From Planctomycetota bacterium (GTDB taxonomy: Bacteria; Planctomycetota; MHYJ01; JACQXL01; JACQZI01), in assembly GCA_016207825.1 (NCBI GenBank), contig JACQZI010000012.1:17532-81531 (forward strand): DNA of 64,000 nt. The letters are read 5' to 3'. The position numbers and the translations under genes are program-made. Below the pieces are notes generated by a model. It was not told the DNA's origin. It saw nothing but the letters and a program-made list of their open reading frames with translations, and did no database searches. The first letter of the stretch is position 1. Every line of letters starts with the position of its first letter. Positions 14,945-51,535 of the stretch are shown in pieces.

Positions 14945-15208
14945 AACACAACCCCATACCCCCTACAACGGCTATAGTCTATACCGGCAATATACTTACC
15001 CCCAGCTTATAACAGTTACCACTATTACCTGCAACAGTTCCCAGCTATCCCTGCAACAGTTATTACCCCTGCCCATAACAGTTATACTCTATACTGGCAA
15101 TATACTTACTTCCAGCCTATAACAGTTACCGCCATCCCCTGCAACAGTTACCCTGCTCCTCTACGACGGTTATACTCTCCCTCGGCAATATACGCTCTCC
15201 CCTGGTCA
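14945..15208. repeat. Minisatellite, 12 units of exactly 22 bp
   Basis: Units start at 14945 and every 22 bases to 15187 without any indel. Most begin AACAGTTA and end TGC or CAT; a variant begins AATATACTTAC. Units starting at 14967, 14989, 15011 and 15033 match those at 15077, 15099, 15121 and 15143, so a 110-bp block was duplicated as well. It is noncoding and lies between the cupin gene and a membrane-protein promoter. Confidence 0.95.
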
Positions 15209-15239
15209 AAAAAATATACATATTTCTGGCAGATATTAC

Positions 15240-15312
15240 TTGACAATGCCCTCGTATTAAATATACTTGTTATCCAATTGGACAGATGAACTGCCCATAA
15301 ATGCCAAGGAGG
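15240..15312 (+). promoter_or_regulatory. Promoter and SD of the 15.3-kb membrane protein
   Basis: TTGACA (15240-15245), 16-base spacer, TATACT (15262-15267); then AAGGAGG (15306-15312) eight bases before the ATG at 15321. This decides the start: an upstream in-frame codon at 15267 lies inside the -10 box. Confidence 0.75.
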
Positions 15313-15320
15313 CATATAGT

Positions 15321-16013
15321 ATGGAAAGCGTATTATCGTTTCTGGCACTCTATCCCTTCTGGTCAACGGTTGTCATTTCTTTAGTCATCTTCGCCTTAGC
15401 CCATATCATTCTGGCTAAAATATACCGCGCCGGACTTAAGCCTACCATCATCGCCGGCTTGGCCTGCGGGCTGATTGTTATCGGATTGCTCCATTACGGG
15501 GTTATTACGGATAATCAGTTTTTTGCCAATCTCATGGGCGTTTTTGCCGGGATTGTTATGTGGTCTCTGTTCGGCGAGATAATGGAAACGCTTCAGGGGA
15601 AATTCAATATCACCACCCATGTGGAAATCGGCTACGGTCACCTGCCTTTCCTTATCCTTGGCAGCTTAATCTGGGGTTTGATTATCCATACCGAGGCTAT
15701 CGAGAACCCGGTTATCTTCCAGTTCTTATTCACGGTTTACGCCATCTGGCTGGGGCACGTGATATTGCTTTCTCTCTATTATCATCCGTGGCTTGGTGAA
15801 CCCCTGAAATCGCCCGAAGTAAAGGCATCCAAGTTAAAAGTGACCTTGACCATATTGACGCTTCTTGTCTACGCAATAATCCTCATTATTATGGCACTCA
15901 AAGCGCCGGATTATTCCATTAAGACGCAGGTCAGCACGGCTTTATGGTTTGTGCTTTTGGCGTGGAGCTTTATCGAAGTTGCCAAGAAGTATTTTTCTCT
16001 AAAGTTGTGGTGA
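15321..16013 (+). CDS. Multi-pass membrane protein, unknown function
   Basis: 230 residues with about six to seven hydrophobic helices (for example STVVISLVIFALAHIILA, IIAGLACGLIVIGLLHYG, LTILTLLVYAIILIIMAL). I recognise no family motif. A conserved-looking His in GYGHLPFLILG and HYG could face a membrane interior. The start at 15321 is set by a strong AAGGAGG. It has its own promoter just after the 22-bp array. A CACAGAG-type inverted repeat follows its stop. Confidence 0.8.
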   Translation: MESVLSFLALYPFWSTVVISLVIFALAHIILAKIYRAGLKPTIIAGLACGLIVIGLLHYGVITDNQFFANLMGVFAGIVMWSLFGEIMETLQGKFNITTHVEIGYGHLPFLILGSLIWGLIIHTEAIENPVIFQFLFTVYAIWLGHVILLSLYYHPWLGEPLKSPEVKASKLKVTLTILTLLVYAIILIIMALKAPDYSIKTQVSTALWFVLLAWSFIEVAKKYFSLKLW

Positions 16014-16020
16014 TATTAGT

Positions 16021-16080
16021 CACGGAGGGCACAGAGCGGGTTATTTATTTTCCTTTGTGTTCTTTGTGCCTTTGTGGTGA
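16021..16080. repeat. CACAGAG/CTTTGTG dispersed inverted repeat
   Basis: CACGGAGGGCACAGAG at 16021-16036 is the imperfect inverse of the CTTTGTGCCTTTGTGGTG end of the element. It lies between convergent genes and could act as a bidirectional terminator. The same words recur at 30320-30352 (CCTTGTGTTCTCTGTGCC), so it is a dispersed element. Confidence 0.7.
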
Positions 16081-16095
16081 AGTATCTATTTAAAT

Positions 16096-17184
16096 TTATT
16101 TACTGAATATCGGCAGGTATTCCGAAGGCAGTTGCAGGATAAGCGTTGCCATGGATGTTGCGTAGGTTTCGCCGACATCGTCTTCCCAGTGGCCGTCGTC
16201 TTTCTGCCCGCCCAGGACTCCGGGTAGCATGATATCCGTATACTGTTTCCACTGTTTTTCGCCCGCCTGGTAGAGCGCCTGGGAAAGGTAATAATGGGTG
16301 TAATAAAAATGATACGGATAATGGTTGTTTTCCGGGACGGGGATGGGATATTGCTGGTTGGTCAGAATCCAGTTTAGCCCCTGTATGACTTTGGCAGAGG
16401 AGTAATCTCCCGCGCTCATAAGGGCGACGACGCCCGCCGCGGTCAGCGCCTGGGATGTCCGCGCATCGGCATCGAGCTGGTATTTGAAAGAGCCTTTTAA
16501 AGGCCCTTCGGCGGTATTGGCGGAGTCATGGACGTATTTCATGGCTTTTTCAATCACGTTCTTGGGGACGGCAATGCCGACATTCCTTGCCGCGCGCAGT
16601 GCCTGAAGCGTCGTGACCGTCACCGAGATATCCGCGTCAATGGGCGAGGGCTGGTAGCGCCAGCCGCCGTCCTTGTTCTGGCACTGGACAATCAGGTTGA
16701 CGGCGTTTTTGAGCTTGGTCTTGACGTCATCCCGTGGGCTCATCCCGTAAATTTCTGCCAGGAACATGGTGGCAAAGGCGTGCTCATACATCCTTGTGCC
16801 GTATCTGGTGATGTAGCCGTCGCTTTCTCGGCAGGAATCGAGTATGAATTCCAAAGTTCTTTTGACATTATCCCCGTATTTGCCGCGCCCGGGAGTGCTC
16901 CCCTGCGCCAGGAAGGACATTCCGCCCAGTGCGGTGACCGCGATATTATCGTTTGTCTCTTTGCCGATGTAGCCTTCGTTGAGTTTGCATCCTATTCTGC
17001 AGGTCCAGGAGCCGTTTTCGTTCTGGTGCTCAGCAAGCCATTTTAACCCCTTTTCCGCGGCGGTTTTTATCAGTTTCTTTTGCGCCTCTTCCGGGGTAGG
17101 CTTGGTGATTTCATCGGATATCAGCGTGCCGATAAGCACCAATAACCAAATCCCAAATCCCAAATAAACATCAAGATTTTTCAT
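16096..17184 (-). CDS. Prenyltransferase/squalene-cyclase-repeat protein, exported
   Basis: 362 residues. A membrane or signal segment near the start (YLGFGIWLLVLIGTLIS) is followed by alpha/alpha-toroid repeats of the squalene cyclase/prenyltransferase superfamily: GLKWLAEHQNENGSWTCRI, IVQCQNKDGGWRY, GLNWILTNQQYP, QKDDGHWEDD. The QxxxGxW repeat is clear. No cyclase DxDD catalytic motif is visible, so it is probably not a terpene cyclase. Planctomycetes have many such exported proteins of unknown role. It starts nine bases after the stop of the large PQQ gene, so the two are likely one operon. Its first codons include a CAAATCCC-type tandem word. Confidence 0.8.
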   Translation of the reverse strand: MKNLDVYLGFGIWLLVLIGTLISDEITKPTPEEAQKKLIKTAAEKGLKWLAEHQNENGSWTCRIGCKLNEGYIGKETNDNIAVTALGGMSFLAQGSTPGRGKYGDNVKRTLEFILDSCRESDGYITRYGTRMYEHAFATMFLAEIYGMSPRDDVKTKLKNAVNLIVQCQNKDGGWRYQPSPIDADISVTVTTLQALRAARNVGIAVPKNVIEKAMKYVHDSANTAEGPLKGSFKYQLDADARTSQALTAAGVVALMSAGDYSSAKVIQGLNWILTNQQYPIPVPENNHYPYHFYYTHYYLSQALYQAGEKQWKQYTDIMLPGVLGGQKDDGHWEDDVGETYATSMATLILQLPSEYLPIFSK

Positions 17185-17193
17185 AATTAAAAT

Positions 17194-20100
17194 CTAATGG
17201 TACAAGTATATCGTATTATCCTGAATCACGCAAAGCCGGTCGCCGATGACCCGTATTTCCGGCTGGCCGCTGCTTTTAAGCTCGCCTTCTATTTTCTGGA
17301 TTTCTTTACCCGTTATCTTATCAAATATCATGATTATTGGCAACCATTTTTTATCGTCAGGGTTAAAGGCTGACACGTTGATGATTATATGATTATCGGT
17401 AAATAATACCTGGGAAACGGTTGAAGCCGTGCCGGTTTCAAGGCTGATTGTTTCCTTCCATTCTTTTAGCTCAAGCGTGTTTTTGATTGGGTGTCCGGAT
17501 ATTTGTATTTCGTTGCTATTTCCTTCATTGAGGGCGATGATATAAGCCATCCGTTCGTCAACACCGATATCACTTATGTAGACAGGGCATTTTATGCCGG
17601 AAGCGGTTGGTTTGCCGGTTGCGCGTTCCAGCATGTTAAGTTCAAAGGCTACCTGCGGCATCGGTTGATCAGGTGTCTGGTTTTCCCGTGTGGTGAAGAA
17701 GAACAGGTGCGTTTCATTTGCCTTGACGGTTTCGGGGAGGATGTCAGCCGGGGTAGGGGATTTCCAGAGTATCTTTTTATTATCAATATCATAGGCAATA
17801 ATCCTTAAAGTAGTAAAGAGGTATAATTTACCGGACTGGTCGTAATGATAGTTGCGTAATTCTTCCGAATTGTTTTCCGGTTTTACGGAATTAAGCATTT
17901 TCCCGGTGCTTTTATCCAGCACGATGGTGATGTTTTTAAATACAGGCAGGATGATTTCTTCATCATAGATGATTATCGTATCAAGTAAGCTATCCGCAAA
18001 GGGGAAAGACCAGAGTTCTTTGCCGTTGGAAATATCGAATACGGTAAGGCGGTAATTCATGGGGTTTTTGGAATCCTGGGTAATGAGGAAAAGATGGCTT
18101 TCCCATAATTCGCCCCGGACGAGTATTTCGGATTTACTGCGGAGGTCGATGAACCAATCAGGCGCGCTCCTCTCCGCTCCGCGGGACGACCCCACTCCGC
18201 TTTGCTTCGGGGACACCCCATTATCGGGAGTCTCCGTAGGCGGGGGCGCATCATAAGCCGCAATTGCCTCACGGCTTAAGGCAATGATTTTGCCGCTTAC
18301 CCGGAAGGCAGAAGGAAGGAGTGTTAAGCCCGTCTTTTTTGTCCAGCTTATCTTGGCGTCGGAATCCAGCCCGATTATTTTATCTTCAACAATAAGTATA
18401 AGATTGCCCGAGTTGCCGGATGGGAAATCCGCTTGGTCGTTAAGTGATACGGTTTCGCTTTCGGTATTCGTATGACTGCCTTTTAGTTTCAAGGGCGGGC
18501 TGAAAGGCTTCAGTGTTTGTTTGTCCGCCTGCAGGTAGGCGTATTCGGGCGAATCCAGTTTGGTTTTTACATATTCTTTAAGGCTTAATTGCTTGTTCTG
18601 GATGGTAATCACGGTATCAGGCGGGAATATTTTAAGCATCTTTTTCAAGAGTGTCTTGGCAGTGCCGAACATCAGGGTTTTTTCATAAGATTCCGCCAGT
18701 TTCAGATAAACCGGAAGGAGATGCGCCGATGAAGAAAATGTTTTTATGAAAAGCATCCCGTTTTCCGTTGCGTCCGCATAATCCTGTTTCTGGTAAGCGC
18801 TTTCCAAGAAGTTATAAATGATGTCCTCGGCTGAACGGCTGTTTGGGTAGAGCTTATAGATTGCCATGAGCTTGATGCGGTCGGCGGAGCTTTTTGCCAC
18901 CTCGTAAAGCGTGCGGGCTTTTTGCTCCTGTTTTTCGTAAACGGTTGACCCTATTTTAGTAATGACGGAATCAATCGCCAGACGGGCGAAATCCCAGATC
19001 CGTTCGCCGTTATAGGTTTCATCAGGCATTTTTTCTATCAGGAGCTGGTATTCCCGGACGGTATTTTCCCACTGTCCTGATTTTTGATAGGCTTGGACGA
19101 GTTCAAGGGTGGTTTCCACAAAGGAATACGGGCCGGGCGAATAGGCACGGGCTTTTTCCAGACAATCAACGGCTTGGTTCGTGCCGGTTATTTCGTCTGA
19201 TTTCGCCCATTCAAAATATGTGCGGTGAAGGTGGTTATTGATTATATTGGTGAGTTGACCGGCATTGGGATTCTTTTCTGCTGCGCTTAACCCCTGTTTG
19301 AATAAAGAAACGGCTTCCGAATATTTCTTGTTCTTAAGGGCAAGCGTGCCTATCTGTTGTATCAGGTAGGCATCATCCGGCTTTTCCTTCAGTTGTCGCT
19401 TGAACCATGTTTCCATTCCGGACCAGTCGTAAAAGGCATTGACCGTCCCCTCGGCTATTATGATTAAGACGTTATCCGATATGAGGATGTTTCCGGCCGG
19501 TATATTTACGTTTACAGTAACAGGCGGTGTTGTGTTCGGATCAATGATAACCCCTGTATTTGGGAAAGAATTCCATTCCCATGATGCCTGTAATTTTTTA
19601 GTAGCCAGGTCAAACATCATCAACGCATTCCGTGCAGGCAAATAAATCGATTGGTCGGTTAGTCCTCCCTTTCCTTTGAACTGATTTTCATAAGTCCAGG
19701 CGCGCTTGCCTTCTTTTGAGATATCAATCCCGATGACGCTGTTTTCCCCCTCGAGATACAGGATATTATTTTTTATGCCCAGAACATAACGCACGGGCGA
19801 CAGGGGGCTTCCTTCCCATTGCCAGAGTTCCTTGCCGGTTTCCCCATCAAGCGCGTAAAGATAATTAGAATCGATGGGGGTGGCGATCAGGATGTGTTTA
19901 TCAGACACCTGGGTTTTTATGAGCGGGTTATTCGCCCAGAGAAGCGGTAGTCTGACCGGGCTGTCACCGCGGGTGACGGTTATTTCCATCTGGTTGTATT
20001 TTTTCACCCATTTTATCATGCCGGTATGTTTATCTACTGCGGAAATTACGCCGACGTTGGATGAATAGTAGATGCTGTCATCATCAACCGTAACCATGGA

Positions 20101-21603
20101 AGGCATTATTTCCCGCGCCGGATTATTGAATAGGTTTACTTCCAGGATTCCAGAGGTGACGAATGTCTTCCAGTATAGCTCGCCGGTAGAGGCATTGAAA
20201 GAGCAGAGGTATTGCTGAGGCAGGTCGGTATCGTTTTCGTTATAAACCGCCACGGCATAGACGCAGTTATAATCAACGACCGGGGGCATTGGGAAAGATG
20301 CTTTCTTAAAGAAATCGCGTTTATCGGTTTCCTCGCCCGCCGACCAGATGATTTTTCCGTTGGAGGCATTCAAGGCGAAAAGTGTCCGGTGGGGGAATGG
20401 GTATTTTACATCAAGATAATAACTGGGGTAAATTTGTTCCTTAAGGCCTCCTGAGGTGGAGGTGATGAGGTTGGCGAATACCTTGTCCTGCGAAACGGTT
20501 ATAGGAAAAACCGCTCTTTCTTCATAAACGGGGTTATTGAAAAAGCCGCTCTCCACTTTCCAGATGATATCAGGTTGTTTGCCTTCATTAAGGGTAATGA
20601 GATTCAATGCATAAACCGCGGTTTCCGTTCCCAGATAAAGTATGCCGTTATGAACCGAAGGGAAATAGGGCAGGTATCTGTTTTGGGGGAGCAACTGCCC
20701 GGAAAATCCGATGTTAGATGGGATAACGCGGTTTGAAGGTATATCAAACGACCACATCAGGGGCGGTTGTGTTTCAATGCGGGAGCCCATGGTTTTTGAG
20801 TGGCGGTTATCGCCTCCGTAGGTATCCCAATCACCGGTTACGGCCAGTTCCATGGATTTGAGTTTGGCTAATTCCCCTTTGGCGAAATCAGCCAGGAGCA
20901 AAGCGGAATCATGTTTAAGTATTTTCATTTCGGGATAATCTTTCAGGATAAGTTCGTAAAGTGTTTGCAAGCGGTCTATTTGCCTCAAGCGGCTGTAGCA
21001 GATTGCGCGGAAGGCAAGCACTTGGTTCATCGGGATTTCTTTTGAGTCAGTTTGTTTAAGTATGCCGGTAATGGTTTCCAGAAGGTTACCGGCCTTATCA
21101 AATTCCTCTTTTTCCATACGGGACAAGGCGGAAAGGTAAGTGGATTTAATCCCATAAGAAGTGTAAAGGTAACGTTCGACAAGCTGGTTTAAGAAACCTT
21201 GATCGCCGGTTGTCTGGGCGGTTTCCAGGAGCGTCCGGGCTGAAGGGTCGAAGATATCGCGGTAAGTTTTTTTTCCTTCAGCCGGCAAGTTTGACAATAG
21301 TTGCCGGCAAAGATACTTAACCCCAACAAAGGTATTAGGCTCTTCTGGATAAGGAACGATATTTTCAGGATATTTTTCCATGGCTTCTTGGTATTTTTTC
21401 ACAGCATTGGTCCAGTCGCTGTTTTTAGCCGCTTCAAGCCCGGTTTCTATTAGCTTGACGGCGTCCGCACTGATGGGGACATAAGCCCGCGAGTTTATTT
21501 TGCCTTCAGCCGGTTCATCTTGGGCTTTAGATAAGGCGGTATATAAAAGCTGGCAGGCAATGAGCGCCAGGATAATAAAATAAACCTTTAGCGGTTTTTT
21601 CAT
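17194..21603 (-). CDS. Giant exported PQQ-propeller/TPR protein
   Basis: 1469 residues from the start at 21603 (MKKPLKVYFIILALIAC); the longer frame to 21672 has no support. The leader ends in LIAC, a possible lipobox. The body has an N-terminal helical part, a PQQ-like beta propeller (LFALNASNGKIIWSAG, LYALDGETGKELWQWEG), a central TPR block (GTLALKNKKYSEAVSLFKQGL), and a second propeller (LTVFDISNGKELWSF, YDIDNKKILWKS). Residues about 1123-1139 (VSPKQSGVGSS) are encoded by a palindromic repeat also present at 34310-34357. Role unknown; probably a periplasmic binding or scaffold protein. Confidence 0.8.
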   Translation of the reverse strand: MKKPLKVYFIILALIACQLLYTALSKAQDEPAEGKINSRAYVPISADAVKLIETGLEAAKNSDWTNAVKKYQEAMEKYPENIVPYPEEPNTFVGVKYLCRQLLSNLPAEGKKTYRDIFDPSARTLLETAQTTGDQGFLNQLVERYLYTSYGIKSTYLSALSRMEKEEFDKAGNLLETITGILKQTDSKEIPMNQVLAFRAICYSRLRQIDRLQTLYELILKDYPEMKILKHDSALLLADFAKGELAKLKSMELAVTGDWDTYGGDNRHSKTMGSRIETQPPLMWSFDIPSNRVIPSNIGFSGQLLPQNRYLPYFPSVHNGILYLGTETAVYALNLITLNEGKQPDIIWKVESGFFNNPVYEERAVFPITVSQDKVFANLITSTSGGLKEQIYPSYYLDVKYPFPHRTLFALNASNGKIIWSAGEETDKRDFFKKASFPMPPVVDYNCVYAVAVYNENDTDLPQQYLCSFNASTGELYWKTFVTSGILEVNLFNNPAREIMPSMVTVDDDSIYYSSNVGVISAVDKHTGMIKWVKKYNQMEITVTRGDSPVRLPLLWANNPLIKTQVSDKHILIATPIDSNYLYALDGETGKELWQWEGSPLSPVRYVLGIKNNILYLEGENSVIGIDISKEGKRAWTYENQFKGKGGLTDQSIYLPARNALMMFDLATKKLQASWEWNSFPNTGVIIDPNTTPPVTVNVNIPAGNILISDNVLIIIAEGTVNAFYDWSGMETWFKRQLKEKPDDAYLIQQIGTLALKNKKYSEAVSLFKQGLSAAEKNPNAGQLTNIINNHLHRTYFEWAKSDEITGTNQAVDCLEKARAYSPGPYSFVETTLELVQAYQKSGQWENTVREYQLLIEKMPDETYNGERIWDFARLAIDSVITKIGSTVYEKQEQKARTLYEVAKSSADRIKLMAIYKLYPNSRSAEDIIYNFLESAYQKQDYADATENGMLFIKTFSSSAHLLPVYLKLAESYEKTLMFGTAKTLLKKMLKIFPPDTVITIQNKQLSLKEYVKTKLDSPEYAYLQADKQTLKPFSPPLKLKGSHTNTESETVSLNDQADFPSGNSGNLILIVEDKIIGLDSDAKISWTKKTGLTLLPSAFRVSGKIIALSREAIAAYDAPPPTETPDNGVSPKQSGVGSSRGAERSAPDWFIDLRSKSEILVRGELWESHLFLITQDSKNPMNYRLTVFDISNGKELWSFPFADSLLDTIIIYDEEIILPVFKNITIVLDKSTGKMLNSVKPENNSEELRNYHYDQSGKLYLFTTLRIIAYDIDNKKILWKSPTPADILPETVKANETHLFFFTTRENQTPDQPMPQVAFELNMLERATGKPTASGIKCPVYISDIGVDERMAYIIALNEGNSNEIQISGHPIKNTLELKEWKETISLETGTASTVSQVLFTDNHIIINVSAFNPDDKKWLPIIMIFDKITGKEIQKIEGELKSSGQPEIRVIGDRLCVIQDNTIYLYH
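18188..18235 (-). repeat. Dispersed repeat inserted in frame in the PQQ gene
   Basis: 48 bases that align without gaps to 34310-34357 with 8 mismatches by eye. Both contain TCCCCGAAG and AAAGC. Here it adds residues within the coding frame of the PQQ protein. Confidence 0.75.
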
Positions 21604-21711
21604 ATACAAAATATACGAATGATAAACCTGTTTCGTTGGCGGTATTATAAGAAAAGATGATGAAACCGTCAAATCAAAACATGGTAATAGTAATATCGAG
21701 CATCTTTTTTA

Positions 21712-21748
21712 TCTAATAAAAAACGGACGGTTTTGCTCCCGTCCGTTT
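21712..21748 (-). terminator. Rho-independent terminator of the DUF4159 gene
   Basis: Minus strand: AAACGGACGG, loop GAGCAAAA, CCGTCCGTTT, then a T-run. It lies just after the stop at 21769 and before the PQQ gene start. Confidence 0.85.
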
Positions 21749-21768
21749 ATTGGTTTTTATCAAGAGTA

Positions 21769-26339: not shown

Positions 26340-26347
26340 ATTTATTA

Positions 26348-27074: not shown

Positions 27075-29165
27075 ATGGCAAGATTGATTGACCTTTCGAA
27101 AGTCCGCAATATCGGCATCATGGCGCATATCGATGCCGGCAAGACCACCCTGACCGAGCGAATCATCTTCTTCACCGGCAAGTCGCACAAGATGGGCGAG
27201 GTGCACGACGGCGAATCCCAGATGGACTGGATGAAGCAGGAAAGGGAGCGCGGGATTACCATTACCGCGGCGGCGACCACCTGTTACTGGAACGACCACC
27301 GGATTAATATCATAGATACCCCTGGTCATGTGGATTTCACCGTGGAGGTCGAGCGGAGCCTGCGTATCCTGGACGGCGCGATTGCCGTATTCTGCGGGGT
27401 GGGCGGAGTGGAGCCACAATCAGAAGCCGTCTGGCGCCAGTCGGAAAAATATAACGTCCCCAAGATAGCCTTTGTCAATAAAATGGACCGCGTCGGCTCG
27501 GATTTCTTCGGCGTCCTTAAGACCATAGAGGAAGACCTCCAAGCCAACGCCATCCCGATGCAGATACCCATCGGCAAAGAGGATTCTTTCCGCGGGGTGG
27601 TTGACCTCGTGGAAATGAAGGCATATGTCTATGATAAGGATTCCGAGGACAAGGATTTCCGCGTGGAAGAGATTCCGGCGGATTATCTCGAACTCGCCCT
27701 GCAATACCATAATATCATGGTGGAAAAAGCGGTGGAGCTGGATGACACGCTTATGGAAAAGTTCCTTAACTCAAAGGATAAAATAACCGCAGCCGAACTT
27801 ATCCCGGCTATCCGCAAAGGCACTATTGCCAACAAAATCGTGCCGGTCCTGTGCGGGACCGCGTTTAAGAATAAAGGCGTCAGGAAACTCCTCGACGCGA
27901 TAACCATGTATCTGCCTTCGCCGATGGAGTTGCCAGCGGTTATCGGGCACCATCCGGACGACGCGGAGAAATCGATTTTCCGCTGCGCGGCGGATACGGA
28001 GCCGTTTTCCGCACTGGTTTTTAAGATACAGTCCGACCCGCATATCGGCAAGCTTATTTATTTGCGGGTTTATTCGGGACATCTTGAAACCGGTTCTTAC
28101 ATATACAATGCCACCAAGCGCCGCAAGGAGCGCATCGGCAGGATTCTCCAGATGCACGCCAACGAGCGCGAAATCATACCTGAAATATTTGCCGGTGATA
28201 TTGCCGCGGTTATCGGGCTCGACCACGCCACGACCGGCGATACGCTCTGCGCTGACGAAGAGCAGTCGATTATACTGGAAGCCATCGAGTTCCCCGCGCC
28301 GGTTATCGCCATCAGCGTCCTTCCTAAAAGCCGTGCGGATAAGGATAAGCTGGGCAAAGCCCTTAACCGTCTGGCAGAGGAAGACCCGACCTTTACCGTC
28401 CACGTCGACCAGGAAACCGACGAAACCATCCTTTCCGGAATGGGCGAGCTGCATCTGGAAATAATCGTTGACCGCCTGAAAACCGAGTTTGATATAGAAG
28501 CCGAAATCGGGCATCCCAAAGTCGCTTACAAGGAAACAATTATTAAAGAAAGCCGGGAATCATATAAACATATCAAGCAGACCGGCGGCCATGGGCAGTA
28601 TGCGCATGTCGAGCTGGTTATTTCCCCGGTCCAGGCGGGTGGCGGCTTTGAGTTCGAAAGCACCATCCACGGCGGCGCTATCCCAAGGGAATATATTCCG
28701 GCGGTGGAAAAAGGCGTGATAGAAGCCATGCAAAAAGGCGTCCTTGCCGGCTTCCCGGTGGTGGATGTCCGTGTGGAACTGGTGGACGGCTCTTTCCACG
28801 AAGTCGATTCATCCGACCTTGCCTTCCGCACCGCGGCGAAGGAATGTTTCAAGCGCGCCTTTAAGAAATCAATTCCGGTGCTCTTGGAGCCTTATATGTC
28901 GCTCGAAATAACCACGCCGAATGAATACATGGGCAGTATTGTCGGGCATATCTGTTCAAAGCGCGGCAAGGTATTGGGAATGGAGGCGCGGGGCGACCTG
29001 CAGATTATAGATGCCGAAGCGCCGCTGGGCGAGATGTTCGGATACGTCTCGACCTTGCGCACCTTAAGCAGCGGCCGGGCTAATTATTCCATGCATTTTG
29101 AAAAGTATATCCAGGTCCCCTTGGCAGTCGCGGAAGAAGTCATCAAAGAAAAGAACGCGAAATAA
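27075..29165 (+). CDS. fusA: Elongation factor G
   Basis: 696 residues, full length. GTPase motifs: AHIDAGKTT (P-loop), [14 protein letters not shown] (switch I), [12 protein letters not shown] (G3) and NKMDRVG (G4). Domain IV begins around [21 protein letters not shown], and [11 protein letters not shown] and [13 protein letters not shown] are conserved EF-G segments. It drives ribosome translocation. It stands alone, not in a str operon, so it may be one of two EF-G paralogues. A weak TTTCCA/TAATAT promoter lies upstream (27027-27054). Confidence 0.96.
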
Positions 29166-29233
29166 GCTTCTATCATCCTAAAACCTCATTTAATTGAGAT
29201 ACAAATCAATATAAGCGTTTTAGACTGCACCTA

Positions 29234-29249
29234 GGGGGAGGGGGGTGGG
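29234..29249. other. G-tract next to the second 22-bp array
   Basis: GGGGG-A-GGGGGG-T-GGG, able to form a G-quadruplex on the plus strand. It lies 10 bases left of the array and echoes the C-tract at 14908-14922. Confidence 0.7.
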
Positions 29250-29585: not shown

Positions 29586-30281
29586 TTACTCAGCGTTAGT
29601 TATAGATGCTTGAATGGTAAACATTATTGGTTCAAATTCATAAATTTCCCATAATATCAAAATGATAGTTTCGTTTAGCTTTCTTAATGACCATGCGATT
29701 CTTTCGATTAAAGTGGTGGTTGATAGTATTGTAATTTGCGTCATGAATTCCCGAAACAAGAAAGTTAATTTTCTGATTGAAGACACAAATGATTTAATTG
29801 TGGCACTATCTAATTTCTTATGTGTCTGTAGACTTTTCTGGATTACTGAAACATTTTTAGTATCAATTATATAAGATTTATCTTTCCCTCTTAAATTTAG
29901 ATAGTTCTTTTTGTCAAGAACAAATTCCTTCAACTGTGTTGAATATAACACATAATCTAACTCGACATAATCCTTTAAAACCTCGCAAATTGTTTGTTTG
30001 ATATCCTCTAAACATCCCGCCGGATCGCTTGGGCTTAGGGAAAACAATGTGTCGCTCCATTTGTCCGCAGCATAATTTTCCTTCTTTGCGTTCTTAATTA
30101 GTCGTTCAAATTTCTTTATATGATAAACAATATGAGTTAATAACGAAGATATGTTTTCTGCCCATATATTACATTCAGCCGGGCTTAACAAATCAGAAGC
30201 TTTTTTCGGTTCTAGCGAAAATATATTTTTGATGTTTGTTTGAATTTTAATTTGCAATCTTCTGAAATCGTTTTTACTCAT
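29586..30281 (-). CDS. Hypothetical helical protein, possibly acquired
   Basis: 231 residues. I recognise no domain. Predicted helical throughout (ENISSLLTHIVYHIKKFERLIKNAKKENYA; DYVELDYVLYST). Some Leu/Ile-rich C-terminal segments (TLIERIAWSLRKLNETIILILWEIYEFEP) may be amphipathic rather than membrane-spanning. Its DNA is clearly more AT-rich than the neighbouring genes, which suggests horizontal acquisition. It is flanked by the 22-bp array on one side and a CACAGAG-type repeat on the other. No SD is evident. Confidence 0.65.
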   Translation of the reverse strand: MSKNDFRRLQIKIQTNIKNIFSLEPKKASDLLSPAECNIWAENISSLLTHIVYHIKKFERLIKNAKKENYAADKWSDTLFSLSPSDPAGCLEDIKQTICEVLKDYVELDYVLYSTQLKEFVLDKKNYLNLRGKDKSYIIDTKNVSVIQKSLQTHKKLDSATIKSFVSSIRKLTFLFREFMTQITILSTTTLIERIAWSLRKLNETIILILWEIYEFEPIMFTIQASITNAE

Positions 30282-44065: not shown

Positions 44066-44067
44066 AA

Positions 44068-44697
44068 CTATTCGCTATCAACCGGATACTGGGGACCGTA
44101 AAACATTCCCTGCTCAATAAGGTCTGATTTTTTCTTGCTGTCGGATTTTTTATGGTCGCGTTCCACTATGTTGGTAAGATATAACTGGAAGACAGGAGGT
44201 TCTTTTACCTCGACGATTTCCTGAAACCTCATGTGTATCATTTCTTGGATTTTTGCGGTTACTTCCTGGACATTAGTCCCTTCCCAGGCGGAATAATAGG
44301 CGGTAATCACTATCGGTTTCGCTTCAGATTTTTTGTCCTTCCTGATGCGGATGTGGATATCGTGCACCTCGGCCAGTTTCTTTACCGCCCGGCGCAGGGA
44401 ATTTTCTATTGCCGAGAGTGAAATGGAGAATTCACCGCTTGCCACATTCAGTTTTATATGGGTTGCATATTGGCGGACAAACAAGTGGCTCAAGAAATAA
44501 AGCAGGTTAAAAAGGACAATATATACGGTCAATAATAAAGCGACCATTCGCACCGATGGGTTGGTATTGATTTGGTCGATAAAATTACCAATCATTACGA
44601 TATTGATGATATCAGATGCCCAGGCAAATCCGATTACTCCGAATCCAACCGCTACCAGCCAGTTCGTCAAACGGAGAATATATCCGATTACTTTCAT
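44068..44697 (-). CDS. Asp23/AmaP-like membrane protein
   Basis: 209 residues. Two N-terminal helices (LVAVGFGVIGFAWASDIINIVMI; MVALLLTVYIVLFNLLYFL) anchor a cytoplasmic Asp23/Gls24-like domain (EFSISLSAIENSLRRAVKKLAEVHDIHIRIRKDK, VQEVTAKIQEMIHMRFQEI). AmaP is the membrane anchor for Asp23 in Firmicutes; here the protein stands alone and could combine both parts. SD AAGGAG upstream. Confidence 0.8.
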   Translation of the reverse strand: MKVIGYILRLTNWLVAVGFGVIGFAWASDIINIVMIGNFIDQINTNPSVRMVALLLTVYIVLFNLLYFLSHLFVRQYATHIKLNVASGEFSISLSAIENSLRRAVKKLAEVHDIHIRIRKDKKSEAKPIVITAYYSAWEGTNVQEVTAKIQEMIHMRFQEIVEVKEPPVFQLYLTNIVERDHKKSDSKKKSDLIEQGMFYGPQYPVDSE

Positions 44698-44760
44698 ATA
44701 AAAACTCCTTATAAGAACGACCTTTGTATTCTATATAAAAGGTATCGTTTTGTAAAGTAA

Positions 44761-46305
44761 TTATTGGAGCAGTTTTTTAATTACCCCGTCAAAAAGGTTG
44801 TTCGGGATTCCCTGCAAGATAATAGCGGATTTTCCGTTCTGATAAACCGCATCGGATGTTTTGCCGTAATCGTAGCGCCGGGTGTTATCCGCAATTACGG
44901 GGTCAATTTGCTCCTCAATAGAAGCTTCTATAAACAAACTCATCCCTTCGGCGAATTCCTTGGCGTCTTTTTCTGTATCCCAAGACGTGCTCCATATGGT
45001 AAATCCAGTTTTTTCCTTGGGATTAAATAGTTCGATATAAGTATCGCCGCCCCAGCCGATGGAATATCTTTCAGCCGCCGGTCCTGTTTTGGGGTTGGAA
45101 AGGAACTGTAGTAAAACAACGAATTCTCCTTGAGTGTCCGGTTTGGATTGCTTCCAGCTTTCTCCTAAGAGCGGTAATAAATCCGGTATTTCGATTGTTA
45201 CAGGCAGGTCTTGGCCTTCAAGGTATTTTTCCGGATGGAGTACTTGTTCGGTTGATTTAGGGAAGTTTTCATAGAGCTTATTAACGCCTTCCCACCCTTC
45301 GATCTCTTTTATTGCTTTAATGAACTTTGCCCCGATGGAATAATTGTAAAGCGACAAAACAGACTGGACCATTTTGGGGCCGAAATCAGAATCGTTCTTA
45401 GCGCTTTTCCATGGGGGCGGCATTTCAAGCATTTTTCCCATGCGGCTTTCAGGCATGCATTCGATTGGCACCAGGGTGGCATCCCCTTCAATCAAAGCGT
45501 CCCGGATATATCTTCCTTCCGTTGAGGTAGCTTTTTTATTTAATTCGGAGATATTAAATAGTTGATCCTGTAATCCATGGAAAGTTTCGTGTATTCTGGT
45601 GGCTTTGAATTTGACCGGGTCGAGTTCTTTCTTGATGTAAAGTGTTTTATCCGCCCAGCGGTAAAAACCCTGGATGCTGTCGGCTTTTTGCCCGTATACG
45701 CGCTCAAATTGGGTGGAAGTCAATATTTTATGCTTAACCGGTTCTTTGAATTTTAAGCCCCTCACTTTTTCTATAAGAGCGATTGCTTCTTCCTGGTCTT
45801 TTTCATCCTGTTCGGTCTGGGGAACTTCAACTATAGGGGGAATCAACTTCATGACATTTTTATATTCATCGCTTCCGCGGACGAATTCCAGGTCTTTATC
45901 CGCATCGATGAATTCCTGGTTATCAAACCCGTATTTAATTGCCAAGGCCAGTGATTTCAGCGCGTTTTCTTTGTCTTTAAGAAGAGAATACATGCAGGCG
46001 CTGTTATAGTGGGCGCTGCCCAAAGCTTCTTTTGGCAGTTCCAAGGTAAGCAGTTTCTGATATACGCCCAAGGCTTTTTGGTAGTTCCTTTCATAAATCA
46101 GCATCTCACCCATCTGCAATAGTTTTTCCGGGTCGGTTTCGGTGATTTCTTCAAGTTTAGGCGGTTCCGGTTTCACTACAACCGGCTTCTCGATTTTCGG
46201 CGGTTCTGTTTTAGGAGCCTCGGTTGTTTGTGGTGTTGAAGGGGTTCCGCATCCCATGATAAAAATTATCCCGGCAAATCCCAAGCTACACATCAGGTTT
46301 TTCAT
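44761..46305 (-). CDS. Lipoprotein with TPR and HExxH metallopeptidase-like domain
   Basis: 514 residues. Lipobox IMGC in the signal; Pro-rich linker; TPR helices around 60-150 (LLQMGEMLIYERNYQKALGVYQKL); a zinc motif HETFHGLQDQ, with ALIEGDAT about 30 residues later as the probable third ligand. A long C-terminal domain (FVVLLQFLSNPKTGPAAERYSIGWGGDTY) is unlike known families to my eye. Good SD (AAGGAGTAAATC). Confidence 0.75.
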   Translation of the reverse strand: MKNLMCSLGFAGIIFIMGCGTPSTPQTTEAPKTEPPKIEKPVVVKPEPPKLEEITETDPEKLLQMGEMLIYERNYQKALGVYQKLLTLELPKEALGSAHYNSACMYSLLKDKENALKSLALAIKYGFDNQEFIDADKDLEFVRGSDEYKNVMKLIPPIVEVPQTEQDEKDQEEAIALIEKVRGLKFKEPVKHKILTSTQFERVYGQKADSIQGFYRWADKTLYIKKELDPVKFKATRIHETFHGLQDQLFNISELNKKATSTEGRYIRDALIEGDATLVPIECMPESRMGKMLEMPPPWKSAKNDSDFGPKMVQSVLSLYNYSIGAKFIKAIKEIEGWEGVNKLYENFPKSTEQVLHPEKYLEGQDLPVTIEIPDLLPLLGESWKQSKPDTQGEFVVLLQFLSNPKTGPAAERYSIGWGGDTYIELFNPKEKTGFTIWSTSWDTEKDAKEFAEGMSLFIEASIEEQIDPVIADNTRRYDYGKTSDAVYQNGKSAIILQGIPNNLFDGVIKKLLQ

Positions 46306-46337
46306 GATTTACTCCTTATAAATAAAAGTAACATTTT

Positions 46338-46401
46338 AAATTATATTAATTCGTTAAGCCTGTCAATAAATGCTTGACTTTAAATTATGCCGCTATATAA
46401 T
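46338..46401. promoter_or_regulatory. Back-to-back divergent promoters
   Basis: Plus: TTGACT (46374-46379), 16-base spacer, TATAAT (46396-46401), for the small membrane protein. Minus: TTGACA (46366-46361) with TAATTT 17 bases away or TATAAT 15 bases away, for the TPR lipoprotein. The two -35 boxes are only 7 bases apart. Confidence 0.7.
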
Positions 46402-46438
46402 ACGCCTTATAATCGCATGATGAAAGGGGGTGAAAATA

Positions 46439-46627
46439 ATGAAAATCCTGTCAACCCTGTTCCTGATAATCAGCGTAATAAGCTTGATTATGGGTATTGT
46501 GTGGAGAATCATGCAGAAACCATTTCCTCTCGGGCAAATTCCGCCGAATTCTATAATGGAATTCACCGCGATATGTCTGCTTTTTGCGCTTGCTATATCT
46601 GTTTATCAGATAGCAAACAAGTCTTGA
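46439..46627 (+). CDS. Small membrane protein, two helices
   Basis: 62 residues. GGGGG at 46426-46430 gives an SD eight bases before the ATG at 46439, so I take this start and not the GTG at 46430. Two hydrophobic helices: ILSTLFLIISVISLIMGIVWRIM and FTAICLLFALAISVYQIA, joined by KPFPLGQIPPNS. Unknown function. It has its own promoter and is followed by a strong terminator, so it is expressed as a separate unit. Confidence 0.75.
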   Translation: MKILSTLFLIISVISLIMGIVWRIMQKPFPLGQIPPNSIMEFTAICLLFALAISVYQIANKS

Positions 46628-46651
46628 TAGCATTGTCGGGCAAAATAAGAT

Positions 46652-46689
46652 AAAACCGTTCCGATAACTTTCGGGACGGTTTTATTTTG
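46652..46689. terminator. Bidirectional rho-independent terminator
   Basis: AAAACCGTTCCGA, loop TAACTT, TCGGGACGGTTTT, then T-rich; convergent genes end on each side (46627 and 46682). Confidence 0.88.
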
Positions 46690-47716
46690 TGTTCAGGTTG
46701 AGTTTACGCTGGGCTTCCAACTCGATTATTTTTACCTTCAGGTCGGAAGCTGGTTTATTGGATGGGTCGAGCGCCAGGGCTTTATTCAGCCATTTGATTG
46801 ATTCCCGGAAATTGAGCTCCATTGCCCAGAGCTGTCCCAGGTTATTGTAGATGGTCACCATCCAGCCGTTGATTTCTCTCAGTTTTTCCCTTCCCTCGCT
46901 CAAGAGATTGACATCGCGGGTTTGGTCAAGCACGGCTATTAAAGCCGATTTGGCGGTAACCAGTTTCTCGATGGCTTTTTTATATAATTTATCCGCCTGG
47001 ATGAAATTATTTTCGCCTTCGCTTTCAAGGCCTGCGGTGTTAAGTTCGTTTACTTCCTTAACCAGTTTAACCACCTCAGCGGAATATTTTTTCCTTAATT
47101 CGATTTCTTTCTTAGTTAGTTGTTCCTGTTCTTTCTTTTTCTGTTCCGCTTCCTTGATTTTGTTTTCCTCTTCCATATTATGCCGTATCATCTGGGTGGC
47201 AAAGGCGGCCGCCTTGGTGGCTTCTTCGGCGTATTTACTGTCCGGATATTTACTGATTAGTTTCTGCAGGTTATTCAGGGCTTCCTCGTATTTGTTCTGT
47301 TTCATCAGTTCTACGGAGTTTTCGATGATCGTGGTGGATTCTTCTTCCACGATAAGCACGAGTTTTTCATCAGCCTTTTCTTTTAGGTTTTCATCGATCT
47401 CGGCAGCTTTTTCAAATTCGTTGCGGCTGTAGTCGTATAGTTTATTGTTCAGGCAATATTCCCCGAGCGTCCAGTGTTCCTGGGCGTTTGAAGTATCCAT
47501 CAATTGCTGACGGATTATATAAACCGAATGTGGTTTTAATTCGTTTAAGGATAGCCCCATCTCCTTTTCATCGCCCAAATTCAGGATGACCTTGTCATTT
47601 TTTATTTCTTTAACGGTGCCTTCTATGATGGTACCGTTTTTCAGTTCAAACTCGTCCCCCCATACCTGTGATGCAAGTATTAAAAAGATAATCGTAAAAG
47701 TTGTTTTCAGTTTCAT
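46682..47716 (-). CDS. Exported TPR/coiled-coil protein
   Basis: 344 residues from MKLKTTFTIIFLIL at 47716; the 47764 frame starts inside the promoter. Signal peptide ends near SQVWGDE. Beta-rich start (LKNGTIIEGTVKEIKNDKVILNL), then TPRs (YDYSRNEFEKAAEI; EALNNLQKLISKYPDSKYAEEA), a long charged coiled coil (NKIKEAEQKKKEQEQLTKKE), and final TPRs. Likely a periplasmic scaffold. GAGG SD is weak. Confidence 0.8.
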   Translation of the reverse strand: MKLKTTFTIIFLILASQVWGDEFELKNGTIIEGTVKEIKNDKVILNLGDEKEMGLSLNELKPHSVYIIRQQLMDTSNAQEHWTLGEYCLNNKLYDYSRNEFEKAAEIDENLKEKADEKLVLIVEEESTTIIENSVELMKQNKYEEALNNLQKLISKYPDSKYAEEATKAAAFATQMIRHNMEEENKIKEAEQKKKEQEQLTKKEIELRKKYSAEVVKLVKEVNELNTAGLESEGENNFIQADKLYKKAIEKLVTAKSALIAVLDQTRDVNLLSEGREKLREINGWMVTIYNNLGQLWAMELNFRESIKWLNKALALDPSNKPASDLKVKIIELEAQRKLNLNTK

Positions 47717-47735
47717 ATTAGCCTCGAAAAATTCT

Positions 47736-47764
47736 ATACTACATTCTTTTTCATCAAATGTCAA
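47736..47764 (-). promoter_or_regulatory. Promoter of the TPR gene
   Basis: Minus: TTGACA (47764-47759), 17-base spacer, TAGTAT (47741-47736). Confidence 0.65.
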
Positions 47765-47838
47765 GGGTAAATAAGACTATTTGCCCCGGTCGTTTTTAGG
47801 TGGCGGTTTTTTTTGAATCAGTCTCATCCGTAAATTGT

Positions 47839-47874
47839 TTGACAAATTCGTCCAATAATTTAAGATTAATCAAT
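47839..47874 (+). promoter_or_regulatory. nrdR promoter, leaderless-type
   Basis: TTGACA (47839-47844), 16-base spacer, TAAGAT (47861-47866); the ATG at 47875 is 8 bases later. No SD. Confidence 0.6.
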
Positions 47875-48336
47875 ATGAAATGCCCGTTTTGCAAAAAGGA
47901 TTCTGATAAGGTAATTGATTCCCGCCTTGCCGAAGAAGGTTTTGCCATCCGCCGACGGCGTGAATGCACCCGTTGCCACCGGCGCTATACCAGCTACGAA
48001 CGGCGCGAGGGAAGCAGTTTGCGCGTGGTAAAAAAAGACGGCTCGCGCGAGGTTTACCTGCGCGATAAGATAGTCAACGGTATCAATAAAGCCTGCGAAA
48101 AGCGCCCGGTTTCTCCCCAGAAAATAGACGGGGTTATCGCCGACCTGGAGCGCGAAATACACGATAAGTTCGAGCGCGAAGTTCCTTCCAAGAAAATAGG
48201 CGAAATTATCATGCGCGAATTGAAAAAGCTCGATAAGGTTGCCTATGTCAGGTTTGCGTCGGTCTACCGTGATTTTAAGGATATCGATGAGTTTATCCGT
48301 GAATTAAAGCCGATGCTGAAGAATAAGATTAGGTGA
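47875..48336 (+). CDS. nrdR: Transcriptional repressor NrdR
   Basis: 153 residues from MKCPFC at 47875. Zinc ribbon CPFC..CTRC with DSRLAEEGFAIRRRRECTRC, then an ATP-cone (VVKKDGSREVYLRDKIVNGI, SPQKIDGVIADLERE). NrdR senses ATP/dATP and represses ribonucleotide reductase genes. No nrd gene is beside it. A frame opening at 47800 is rejected because a promoter lies inside it. Confidence 0.95.
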   Translation: MKCPFCKKDSDKVIDSRLAEEGFAIRRRRECTRCHRRYTSYERREGSSLRVVKKDGSREVYLRDKIVNGINKACEKRPVSPQKIDGVIADLEREIHDKFEREVPSKKIGEIIMRELKKLDKVAYVRFASVYRDFKDIDEFIRELKPMLKNKIR

Positions 48337-48339
48337 GGG

Positions 48340-48437
48340 ACGTCACTTCGCTCTCCCGATTAGGTTCCCGATAGGATAATCGGGACTTCCCCGCCTTGGC
48401 GGGGTCGCGGGACGGAATTTATCCCGTATTAGCGGGA
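48340..48437. repeat. Cluster of small palindromes between nrdR and secA
   Basis: TCCCGAT/ATCGGGA (48366-48372, 48379-48385), CCCCGCC/GGCGGGG (48389-48404) and TCCCG/CGGGA (48422-48437). The word ACGTCACTTCGCTC near 48340 recurs in valS. The last palindrome supplies the secA stop. Confidence 0.8.
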
Positions 48438-51035
48438 CTGTCGTTGCGCACAACACTTCTTATACTTTTTCCCGCTCCCGCACGGGCAAGGGTCGTTGCG
48501 TCCCACTTTGTCGCCGACCACTACGGGCCTGGATTTCTCCGTTGCCATGGCACCTTTATTCTCTTCATTGGTGCCGCCTTTTGCCCTTTTCACCTCTTCA
48601 AAAGCGCCGATTTCCTGGTGCTTGAATTCGGTCGGCTTCCAGGTCTTTTCCAGCTTTTCCATCTCCGGCTTTTCTATCCGCACCTTGAAGATAAGGTCGG
48701 TTGTTTCTTCCTTGACCGCTTCAATCAGCGTATCAAAAAGCTGATAGCCTTCGCGCTTGTATTCAATCTTGGGGTCAACCTGCGCGTAACTCCGCAATCC
48801 TATCCCGCTTCTCAGCTGGTCCATGGCGTAAAGATGGTCTTTCCATTTTTCGTCTATCTTTTCCAGGAGTATATATTGTTCGAGTTCCCGCATTATCGGT
48901 TCGGTCAGTGTTTTCTCCCTTTCGTCATAGGCCTCTTTTGTTTTATCAAGCAATAATTTCTCGATTTCTTTGATGCTTCCGGCTGATAATTTCTCCGCGC
49001 TTATTTCCATCCCAAATTTGCGCTTTGCCCATTCGGACAGTCCCTTGTAATCCATATCTTCATTCTTGGCGTTTTCCGGCAGGTATAAATCTATCGCGCG
49101 GTAAACGCGGTCTTCTATCATCTCCGCAATCATTTTCTTCAGGTCTTTCTTTTCTATCACCAATTGCCTTTGCCCGTAGATTATCTTGCGCTGCTCGTTC
49201 ATTACCATGTCGTATTCCAGCAGGTTTTTCCTGATATCAAAATTATGCGATTCCATCTTTTTCTGGGCGTTTTCTATGGCGCGCGAAATCATCCGGCTTT
49301 CCAAGGCCATCCCGTCTTTCATTCCGAGCTTGCCCAGGAGCCCTCTTACCCAATCAGGCGCGAAGAGCCTTAAAAGCGTATCTTCCATGGAAACGACGAA
49401 TTGTGAAGAGCCCGGGTCGCCCTGCCTGCCGGCGCGGCCGCGCAACTGGTTATCTATGCGGCGCGATTCGTGCCGCTCCGTGCCGAGTATATGAAGACCG
49501 CCCAAAGCGGCAACTCCCTCGCCCAGGATAATATCCGTTCCGCGCCCGGCCATATTGGTCGCAATGGTCACCTGCGCGGGTTGTCCGGCCTGGGCGACAA
49601 TCTGCGCCTCGCGCTCGTGCTGCTTGGCGTTAAGGACGTCGTGCTGTATGCCGCGGCGCTTGAGCATCTCGCTCAAACGCTCGGAATTTTCTATCGAAGT
49701 CGTCCCGACCAGGGTCGGCCGCCCGGTCTGGTTAATCCGCACGATTTCTTCTATAATGGCGTTAAACTTTTCCTCCTCTGTCCGGAAGACCATGTCCGGT
49801 GAGGTATTGCGGATGAGCGGTTTATTGGTCGGGATGGTGACGACATCTAGCTTGTATATCTGGAAAAACTCCATCGCCTCGGTTGCCGCGGTGCCGGTCA
49901 TGCCGGAGAGCTTTTCATACATCTTAAAATAATTCTGTAGCGTTATGGTCGCCAGGGTCTGGTTTTCCTCCTTGATTTTCAGGTGCTCGTTTGCCTCGAC
50001 CGCCTGGTGGAGCCCGTCGCTCCAGCGCCTGCCCGGCATCAGGCGTCCGGTGAATTCGTCCACGATGATGACCTCGCCGTCCTTGACGATATATTCCTTA
50101 TCCTTTTTATAAAGCTCTTTCGCCCTCAATGCCTGTTCGATGTGATGCGGCCATTCCATGTTCTTGCCGTCGTAGAAGGTGTCTACTCCGATCAGGTTCT
50201 GGGCGGTGGTTATGCCCGTATCGGTCAGGATGACCGTATTCTCTTTTTCCTTAACCTCGTAATCCCGGCCCTTTTGCATGCGTGAAGCGACCCGTTCGGC
50301 GGTGTAATATTTATCCGTGGATTCCTCGGCCGGGCCGGAAATAATCAAGGGGGTTCTGGCTTCATCTATCAGGATGCTATCCACCTCGTCAACGATGGCG
50401 TAATGGTATTTCCTCTGGACCTGGTATTCCAAACGGGTTCTCATATTATCGCGGAGATAATCAAACCCGAATTCGTTATTGGTGCCGTAAGTAATATCGC
50501 AGGCGTAAGCGGCCTTTCTTTCTTCCGAGCCCATCTGGTTCTGGATGACGCCCACGGTAAGCCCGAGCATTTCGTAGATGGGTCCCATCCATTCGCGGTC
50601 GCGCCGGGCGAGGTAATCGTTTACCGTGACGATGTGGACGCCTTTTCCGGTTAAGCCATTAAGGTAAGCCGGTAAAGTGGCGACGAGGGTTTTTCCTTCT
50701 CCGGTTGCCATTTCCGCGATGGTTCCGCGGTGGAGGACTATTCCGCCGATTAACTGGACATCAAAGTGGCGCATCTTGGTCGTGCGTTTGGACGCCTCGC
50801 GCACTGCGGCAAATGCCTCCGGCAGGATATCGTCTAGTGTCTCGCCGTTCTCCAGGCGTTCTTTGAATAGGGCGGTTTGTTCCTTTAGCTGGGCATCGGT
50901 AAAGGCGGCGAATTTGGGTTCCAGCTCGTTTACTAGGGGGATTAAGGGCTGGATGGATTTCAGGACGCGCTGGTTACGCGAGCCGAAAAGCCTGGTGAGT
51001 ATATTAGAAATCCCTTCGCCTAATTGTTCTAACAT
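48429..51035 (-). CDS. secA: Preprotein translocase ATPase SecA
   Basis: 868 residues. Walker A ATGEGKTLVATLPAYL, Walker B VDEVDSILIDEARTPLI, helicase motifs TNMAGRGTDIILGEGV and RRIDNQLRGRAGRQGDPGSS, and a C-terminal SEC-C zinc motif (NDPCPCGSGKKYKKCC). It powers Sec export with LepB at 7050. The last residues (Ser-Arg) and stop are encoded by a palindrome. Confidence 0.97.
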   Translation of the reverse strand: MLEQLGEGISNILTRLFGSRNQRVLKSIQPLIPLVNELEPKFAAFTDAQLKEQTALFKERLENGETLDDILPEAFAAVREASKRTTKMRHFDVQLIGGIVLHRGTIAEMATGEGKTLVATLPAYLNGLTGKGVHIVTVNDYLARRDREWMGPIYEMLGLTVGVIQNQMGSEERKAAYACDITYGTNNEFGFDYLRDNMRTRLEYQVQRKYHYAIVDEVDSILIDEARTPLIISGPAEESTDKYYTAERVASRMQKGRDYEVKEKENTVILTDTGITTAQNLIGVDTFYDGKNMEWPHHIEQALRAKELYKKDKEYIVKDGEVIIVDEFTGRLMPGRRWSDGLHQAVEANEHLKIKEENQTLATITLQNYFKMYEKLSGMTGTAATEAMEFFQIYKLDVVTIPTNKPLIRNTSPDMVFRTEEEKFNAIIEEIVRINQTGRPTLVGTTSIENSERLSEMLKRRGIQHDVLNAKQHEREAQIVAQAGQPAQVTIATNMAGRGTDIILGEGVAALGGLHILGTERHESRRIDNQLRGRAGRQGDPGSSQFVVSMEDTLLRLFAPDWVRGLLGKLGMKDGMALESRMISRAIENAQKKMESHNFDIRKNLLEYDMVMNEQRKIIYGQRQLVIEKKDLKKMIAEMIEDRVYRAIDLYLPENAKNEDMDYKGLSEWAKRKFGMEISAEKLSAGSIKEIEKLLLDKTKEAYDEREKTLTEPIMRELEQYILLEKIDEKWKDHLYAMDQLRSGIGLRSYAQVDPKIEYKREGYQLFDTLIEAVKEETTDLIFKVRIEKPEMEKLEKTWKPTEFKHQEIGAFEEVKRAKGGTNEENKGAMATEKSRPVVVGDKVGRNDPCPCGSGKKYKKCCAQRQSR

Positions 51036-51072
51036 GGAAAGTGATTATAATAAGTAAACCGATAAGTTGCAA
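51036..51072 (-). promoter_or_regulatory. secA promoter, leaderless-type
   Basis: Minus: TTGCAA (51072-51067), 17-base spacer, TATAAT (51049-51044); eight bases then the ATG at 51035. No SD. Confidence 0.65.
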
Positions 51073-51205
51073 TTATTTTAAGGTTATCTTAGAAGAAGAA
51101 AAGAAGGAATAAATTATTAAGCTTCCCTATTGGCACTTTGTAGAATCAAATTACCTACTCTGGGATGGTTTTCAGAGTGAGCGGAGTTAAAAACCGGCTT
51201 GGGTA

Positions 51206-51535
51206 TATAGCGTATGATATTAGGGGCTATAGCATATAATATTAGGGGGTATAGGATATGATATTAGGGACTATAGGATATGATATTGGGGGCTATAGGA
51301 TATGCTATTAGGGACTATAGGGTATGCTATTAGGGATTATAGGATATGATATTGGGGACTATAGGGTATGCTGTTAAGGACTATAGGATATGATATTGGG
51401 GACTATAGGGTATGTTATTAGGGACTATAAGGTATGCTATTAGGGTGTATAGGGTATGCCATTAAGGACTATAGTGTATGCTATTAGGGACTATATGATA
51501 TGGTATTAGGATGGCAGGGATATACTATTAGGGCA
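51206..51535. repeat. Minisatellite, 15 units of exactly 22 bp
   Basis: Units start at 51206 and every 22 bases to 51514 (the last ones decayed). Consensus begins TATAGGATATG and ends CTATTAGGGAC. No indels. It lies about 130 bases beyond the secA promoter in an 868-base gene-free gap. Confidence 0.95.

Follow-up and report, generated by a model that had tools for sequence, protein, structure and literature searches.

The window, by which we mean the whole stretch of 64,000 nucleotides analysed here (contig C12 of the draft genome G000, which comprises 2.89 Mb in 42 contigs), carries three intergenic minisatellites with one and the same period of 22 bp. Array 1 lies in a tandem gap, with a cupin gene on one side and an ORF (15267–16013) on the other. 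Array 2 occupies the convergent gap between the EF-G gene (27075–29165, plus strand) and an ORF on the minus strand (29586–30281), and array 3 is located upstream of secA (48429–51035, minus strand), its other neighbour being an SNF symporter gene (52105–53613, minus strand). The features at these loci are:

14898–15225, minus strand: element 1, the whole dispersed unit (~328 bp), 88–89% homologous to L029:6669–6994
14899–14916, minus strand: G-run/C-run end of element 1 (GGGGG ACTACCT CCCCCC), from the sequence
14945–15208, no strand assigned: array 1, 12 units of exactly 22 bp, from the lag scan
15208–15214, minus strand: T-run at the opposite end of element 1 (A7 on the plus strand), from the sequence
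29234–29249, minus strand: G/C-run adjoining array 2 (GGGGGAGGGGGGTGGG), kept in the homologous copy L086
29250–29544, minus strand: array 2, 13 units of 22 bp, 68% homologous to L086:7983–8278
51199–51535, plus strand: array 3, 15 units of 22 bp, 81% homologous, inverted, to L016:13914–14160
51536–51566, plus strand: right end of element 3 (GCATGGAGCGTTACTCTATAGGGAGCGGGG), which resembles the matching flank of L016 (sequence comparison)

The original prediction, made from the letters of the window, had placed arrays of 12, 13 and 15 units here with every unit start 22 bases after the last, and this was confirmed without a single indel; the three arrays reach lag scores of 61–207, whereas the highest score in one Markov-1 resample of the window is 16. 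It was also correct in calling the gap of array 2 convergent, but not in describing array 3 as divergent from secA: because both secA and the symporter gene lie on the minus strand, this gap is tandem. That the arrays share no consensus holds inside the window, where no two of the consensus units are related; in the rest of the genome, however, every array has diverged relatives, namely L029, L125 and L126 for array 1, L086 for array 2, and L016, in inverse orientation, for array 3. The homology between element 1 and L029 stops at 14898 and 15225, beyond which the flanks are dissimilar. A known RNA family was rejected as an identity for the arrays, as Rfam gave no match at any of the three and a single tRNA is the only known RNA in the whole window.

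Within the 2.31 Mb (80%) of G000 that was read, we found 65 intergenic arrays of period 22, amounting to 28 per Mb and 0.7% of the DNA read, a count in which arrays broken by indels may be under-sampled since detection used lag 22. Their median size is 276 bp (quartiles 240–293) with ~12 units per array, and those with clear neighbours fall into 29 tandem, 14 convergent and 5 divergent gaps. TAG and TAA are frequent inside them, and the only ORFs that overlap them are short (81–151 aa) and probably spurious. Coding repeats were rejected, given that 22 is no multiple of three and that the units contain stops; the coding-like arrays of this genome have periods mostly divisible by three. A CRISPR array was rejected as well, the units being arranged head-to-tail without spacers.

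Rather than many different periods genome-wide, a lag scan returned 22 as the overwhelmingly preferred one, also in relatives, so that the preference implied by the original prediction stands. Computed over 305 kb of non-coding DNA, the spectrum has 7,164 windows at lag 22 and 1,393 at lag 21; the remaining signal consists of doubles at 44 and 42, with at most 41 windows at any other lag. The fundamental period is 22 in 56 of the 74 non-coding tandem arrays that score at least 40, while the other 18 comprise three with 44, one with 11, five with 21 and nine single cases. A control scan over 79 loci of other phyla or classes (1.31 Mb) yielded five non-coding arrays, none of them of period 22. 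Behind this one period are ~35–40 unrelated unit sequences, and even adjacent units within an array differ at ~35% of sites. One repeat size thus extends over arrays of unrelated sequence, all of them non-coding and belonging to several lineage-specific families.

Arrays of period 21 form a second class, often near gene starts or ends (L027:17885, L035:18198, L045:14976, L079:12549, L081:1092, L082:4228, L091:13229, L093:4571), and occur in G003 and G007 (L251, L252) as well. Several of their units look palindromic, with a palindrome z of 1.1–4.2 in 10 of 12, and L027, L035 and L045 have in common a segment that resembles TAACTCGT or the complement of it.

BLAST among the arrays groups them into families of two to four copies at unrelated loci, including L048/L060/L124 (93–95% identity), L094/L109/L127 (85–91%), L039/L097/L128, L032/L090/L117 and others. 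Within a family the homologous stretch starts slightly outside the array and, on the opposite side, ends slightly past a G-run/C-run hairpin; the flanks differ. Such a hairpin (G4+ ... C4+) is present on one side of 34 of 62 arrays versus 72 of 1,251 background windows, although its orientation was picked by G/C-run content, which inflates the count and makes a fair background about double. On the side opposite the hairpin, a T-run (T5) is found in 24 of 62 arrays, compared to 172 of 1,251 background windows. The G/C-run that had been noticed beside two of the three window arrays is real, and is an end structure that recurs genome-wide. As the homology ends at the array edges, usually with a T-run on one side and the hairpin on the other, the arrays are dispersed MITE-like units of ~330–400 bp. 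The original prediction had favoured a mechanism that measures length rather than a spreading element, and this opposition is not supported, many arrays being dispersed copies with defined ends. From these copies we infer that the spreading unit is probably a short mobile element with the array as its body.

Searches for the means of dispersal were negative within their scope. No transposase could be tied to the elements, either through the one truncated Y1 transposase (94 aa) or among ten multi-copy proteins tested. As this Y1 match is the sole one, and no 22-bp array was detected in its 3.2-kb locus, a REP/RAYT system was rejected; copying by a reverse transcriptase was rejected too, with RVT_1 absent from the genome. 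The elements have their G-run/C-run end, but neither IS-like terminal inverted repeats nor a matching IS were found. In the DNA compared between G000 and G001 there were no empty sites or target duplications; the region of array 1 has no match in G001, and secA synteny is broken beside array 3. A plasmid or phage origin was rejected, as array 3 had no match in plasmids and array 2 none in phages.

Some further repeats were seen in the course of these comparisons. An imperfect palindrome (AAACC..TTTAATTGA../..CTTATATTGATTT) recurs at the right flanks of L060, L086, L109, L124 and L127, and at 29160–29230 in the window; adjoining many element ends, it may be a preferred target or a part of the element. 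Another dispersed intergenic repeat (TTTCCGCAGTAAATACTTCGGATAATAG...) has a G/C-run end and no 22-bp array (L118:177–510, L127:11307–11546, L235 near 1000–1300). Many coding segments are also repeated, including one of an RCC1-repeat protein (L081, L082, L083, L105, L117:15904–17925), a 3' coding segment recurs across several loci, and these repeated coding segments are the source of many long repeats in the genome.

How strictly the register is kept was determined by wrap-around alignment of each array together with 200 bp per side. Over all arrays this gave 6 indels, compared with 4,566 positions that deviate from the consensus, a ratio of 0.0013. The method is able to see indels, because it recovered 177 of 259 indels that had been planted in simulations at a ratio of 0.05. 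In ordinary non-coding alignments of G000 and G001, which serve as a natural control, 119 gaps accompany 746 mismatches (ratio 0.16); the arrays keep their register ~50–120-fold better than ordinary non-coding DNA. Moreover, in 16 of 18 dispersed homologous pairs, with 765 mismatches between them, the gaps sum to zero or to a multiple of 22. In the pair L080/L078 no gap interrupts the array, at ~85% identity, whereas gaps do occur in the intergenic DNA downstream of it. The phase therefore holds inside arrays and also survives their dispersal. The duplicated region in the latter pair (L078 ~5480–6320 and L080 ~17958–18802) comprises a gene start (MPKKSDEKLLLHMTKAVPVYTEPF...) beside the 22-bp array, and in L131 a 21-bp array is followed by a similar short-gene start (MPKKDYIPYSDAEFDEWF).

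The preference for 22, together with the rarity of indels, points to a constraint on length and not on sequence. Could the period simply have been inherited, all families being plain MITE bodies that descend from one ancestor with a 22-bp unit and whose sequence has since drifted? The build of T-run, array and hairpin that is common to G000, G001 and G003, the last of which belongs to another family, would suit such a descent. Drift at a ratio of 0.16, however, predicts many indels and a spread of periods, whereas periods 23–25 are absent. Unrelated units, one period and the indel deficit make passive inheritance hard to uphold, and we regard it as very unlikely.

Alternatively, the period may be fixed at birth by a copying process with a 22-nt step (slippage, or rolling-circle-like) that makes arrays de novo, in which case no reader is needed. 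This would explain why ~35–40 unrelated units agree in period and form arrays that vary little in length (median 276 bp). It would also fit the higher-order repeats seen in some arrays (e.g. of 110 bp), and the fact that the more homogeneous arrays are the newer-looking ones. Against it, phase is kept after dispersal, with a net out-of-phase change in only 2 of 18 pairs over their 765 mismatches, where neutral decay at 0.16 would yield many more such changes, and the genome was found to have no reverse transcriptase. We consider birth at a fixed period an unlikely explanation, though the next best after a length-reading protein. As for the mechanism or protein that had been proposed to measure length, the constraint on length is borne out by period and register, while the protein reader is itself still a matter of inference.

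In the arrays TA steps are enriched (rho 1.58, compared to 0.98 in other intergenic DNA), and AA/TT is depleted (0.79 versus 1.21). Of 50 non-redundant arrays, 28 conserve GTA/TAC in phase, where 13.1 are expected; this is a weak signal of 3–4 bases only, and phase-conserved TA is absent from 12 of the 50. No unit motif longer than these 3–4 bases is common to the arrays, there is no 11-bp sub-periodicity within them, and the palindromes in their units are not significant (z 1.6).

Function could also reside in RNA, if the arrays are transcribed and their 22-nt units act as small-RNA or protein-binding modules. The 52-nt arrays of Bacillus coagulans are transcribed according to Subirana and Messeguer (PMC8161180, PMC8625621), and here a sigma-70-like promoter sequence adjoins the left end of the family L039/L097/L128. 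Folded as RNA, the arrays exceed column-permuted controls in stability by a small margin only, with mean z of −0.54 and −0.36, and 8 and 9 of 65 arrays below −2. Since, furthermore, the unit palindromes lack significance, the window arrays match no Rfam family, and the end hairpin is mostly not followed by a U-run, a function at the RNA level appears improbable.

To chart the distribution of the arrays, the strict pattern (TA N20)x10 was run on 392 Planctomycetota genomes. It matched 101 times in G000, 344 in G003, 79 in G007, 41 in G001 and 2 in G006, all of which belong to one order. The only genome outside this order with matches, G178 (3), has an unrelated array of period 11, and the 14 genomes from other orders of the same class have none. 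Four genomes of the order (G002, G004, G005 and G008) are also without a match; as the pattern tolerates little variation and some of these genomes are not complete, absence there is tentative. At period 21 the same pattern is found 4 times in G000, 13 in G003 and 2 in G007, and at period 23 in none of the nine genomes of the order; for G003 the periods were read by this pattern search. In G001, of the same genus as G000, six 22-bp arrays occur in 183 kb, two of which form a family that also has the T-run and hairpin at its ends, and an array of G003 again has these ends. Among named genomes the closest is a 'Candidatus Brocadiia bacterium' MAG, with a SecA of 94% identity.

This distribution also bears on the possibility of an assembly or detection artefact. 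The draft of G000, which is probably a MAG, is fragmented, and repeats can be collapsed when short reads are assembled. Adjacent units that differ at ~35% of sites are nevertheless assembled uniquely, and the pattern is present in five separate genomes and absent from the control loci. An artefact as the account of the period is thereby refuted and scarcely credible in any form, while copy numbers could still change.

The original prediction knew of no bacterial system of this kind, yet repeats of constant size and variable sequence have been described (PMC8161180), as has a 23-nt minisatellite within a MITE (PMC4596501). In the sections of their article that we draw on, Subirana and Messeguer report bacterial tandem repeats of constant size (20–21 and 52 nt) and variable sequence (PMC8161180, citing J. 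Bacteriol. 2020 e00229-20), with 20–23 nt named for individual species. They note that 20–21 nt equals two helical turns, and propose a polymerising protein of constant spacing, or small RNAs. Like those repeats, as far as these sections describe them, the arrays are non-coding, species-specific and taxonomically patchy, with several families per genome, one size for unrelated sequences, and short common sub-motifs. A size of 22 nt fits the wider class of 20–23 while lying outside both main sizes, and we find a main line at 22 with a different, minor class at 21, where the same sections give main classes of 20–21 and 52 nt. As such, the arrays belong to a known but unexplained kind. Relative to those sections, our study adds the end structures, the dispersal units, the measurement of indels against substitutions, and a host from the Brocadiia (Planctomycetota).

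Closest in build is the BrickBuilt MITE of Porphyromonas gingivalis (Klein et al.), which has ~19 copies per genome and consists of a 23-nt minisatellite of 1–22.8 copies between a distinct leader and tail (PMC4596501). It is likewise a dispersed intergenic unit with a short-period minisatellite as its body, and its copies have common boundaries at unrelated loci. BrickBuilt, however, is made of a single unit sequence, carries IS5-like terminal inverted repeats and shows indels of up to 6% in its arrays (PMC4596501), unlike the ~35–40 unit sequences, the lack of detectable IS-like terminal repeats and the near absence of indels seen here. Transposed satellite families, rare and with long repeats, are known from Leptospira interrogans and Methanocella conradii (PMC6749651); these too are non-coding and have moved to several sites of prokaryotic genomes, but do not have a constant short period over unrelated families.

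Starting from the observed period, register, dispersal, end structures, TA enrichment and clade restriction, the best account in our opinion is a sequence-tolerant DNA-binding protein that reads length, with one contact per 22 bp, which we put forward tentatively and at slightly less than an even chance. An element would be built from a T-run, ~11–15 units of exactly 22 bp and a G-run/C-run hairpin, and its copies would spread to many intergenic sites. Between families the unit sequence changes freely while the 22-bp register is held, and the likeliest reason is that the protein would make contact once per 22 bp, every two helical turns, helped by the flexible TA step that most units contain. 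An array falling out of phase would be lost or left uncopied. What the protein reads would then be the spacing, and this read-out may be important for the spread of the element or for packaging of the chromosome. That no protein partner was identified counts against this length-reading account, as do the lack of an 11-bp sub-period and of a common unit motif beyond 3–4 bases, the 12 of 50 arrays without phase-conserved TA, and the negative searches for a transposase, an empty site or a target duplication.

Taken further, the arrays could constitute a genome-wide scaffold in one order of Planctomycetota, in which mobile elements spread arrays whose sole conserved information is the 22-bp spacing, and a sequence-tolerant protein polymer counts two helical turns per subunit. 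We consider this extension rather doubtful, but if it were true, selection would act on the geometry of DNA and not on its sequence. Relative to the parts of PMC8161180 drawn on, the new points are a clean spectrum, a deficit of indels measured with a natural control, the ends and dispersal units, the TA enrichment and the clade boundary. With essentially one main spectral line and 65 arrays, this is an unusually clean case, in which the constraint on register can be measured against ordinary indel rates and the trait is confined to a handful of genomes within a single order. What measures length in such repeats, a long-standing question, thereby becomes directly testable.
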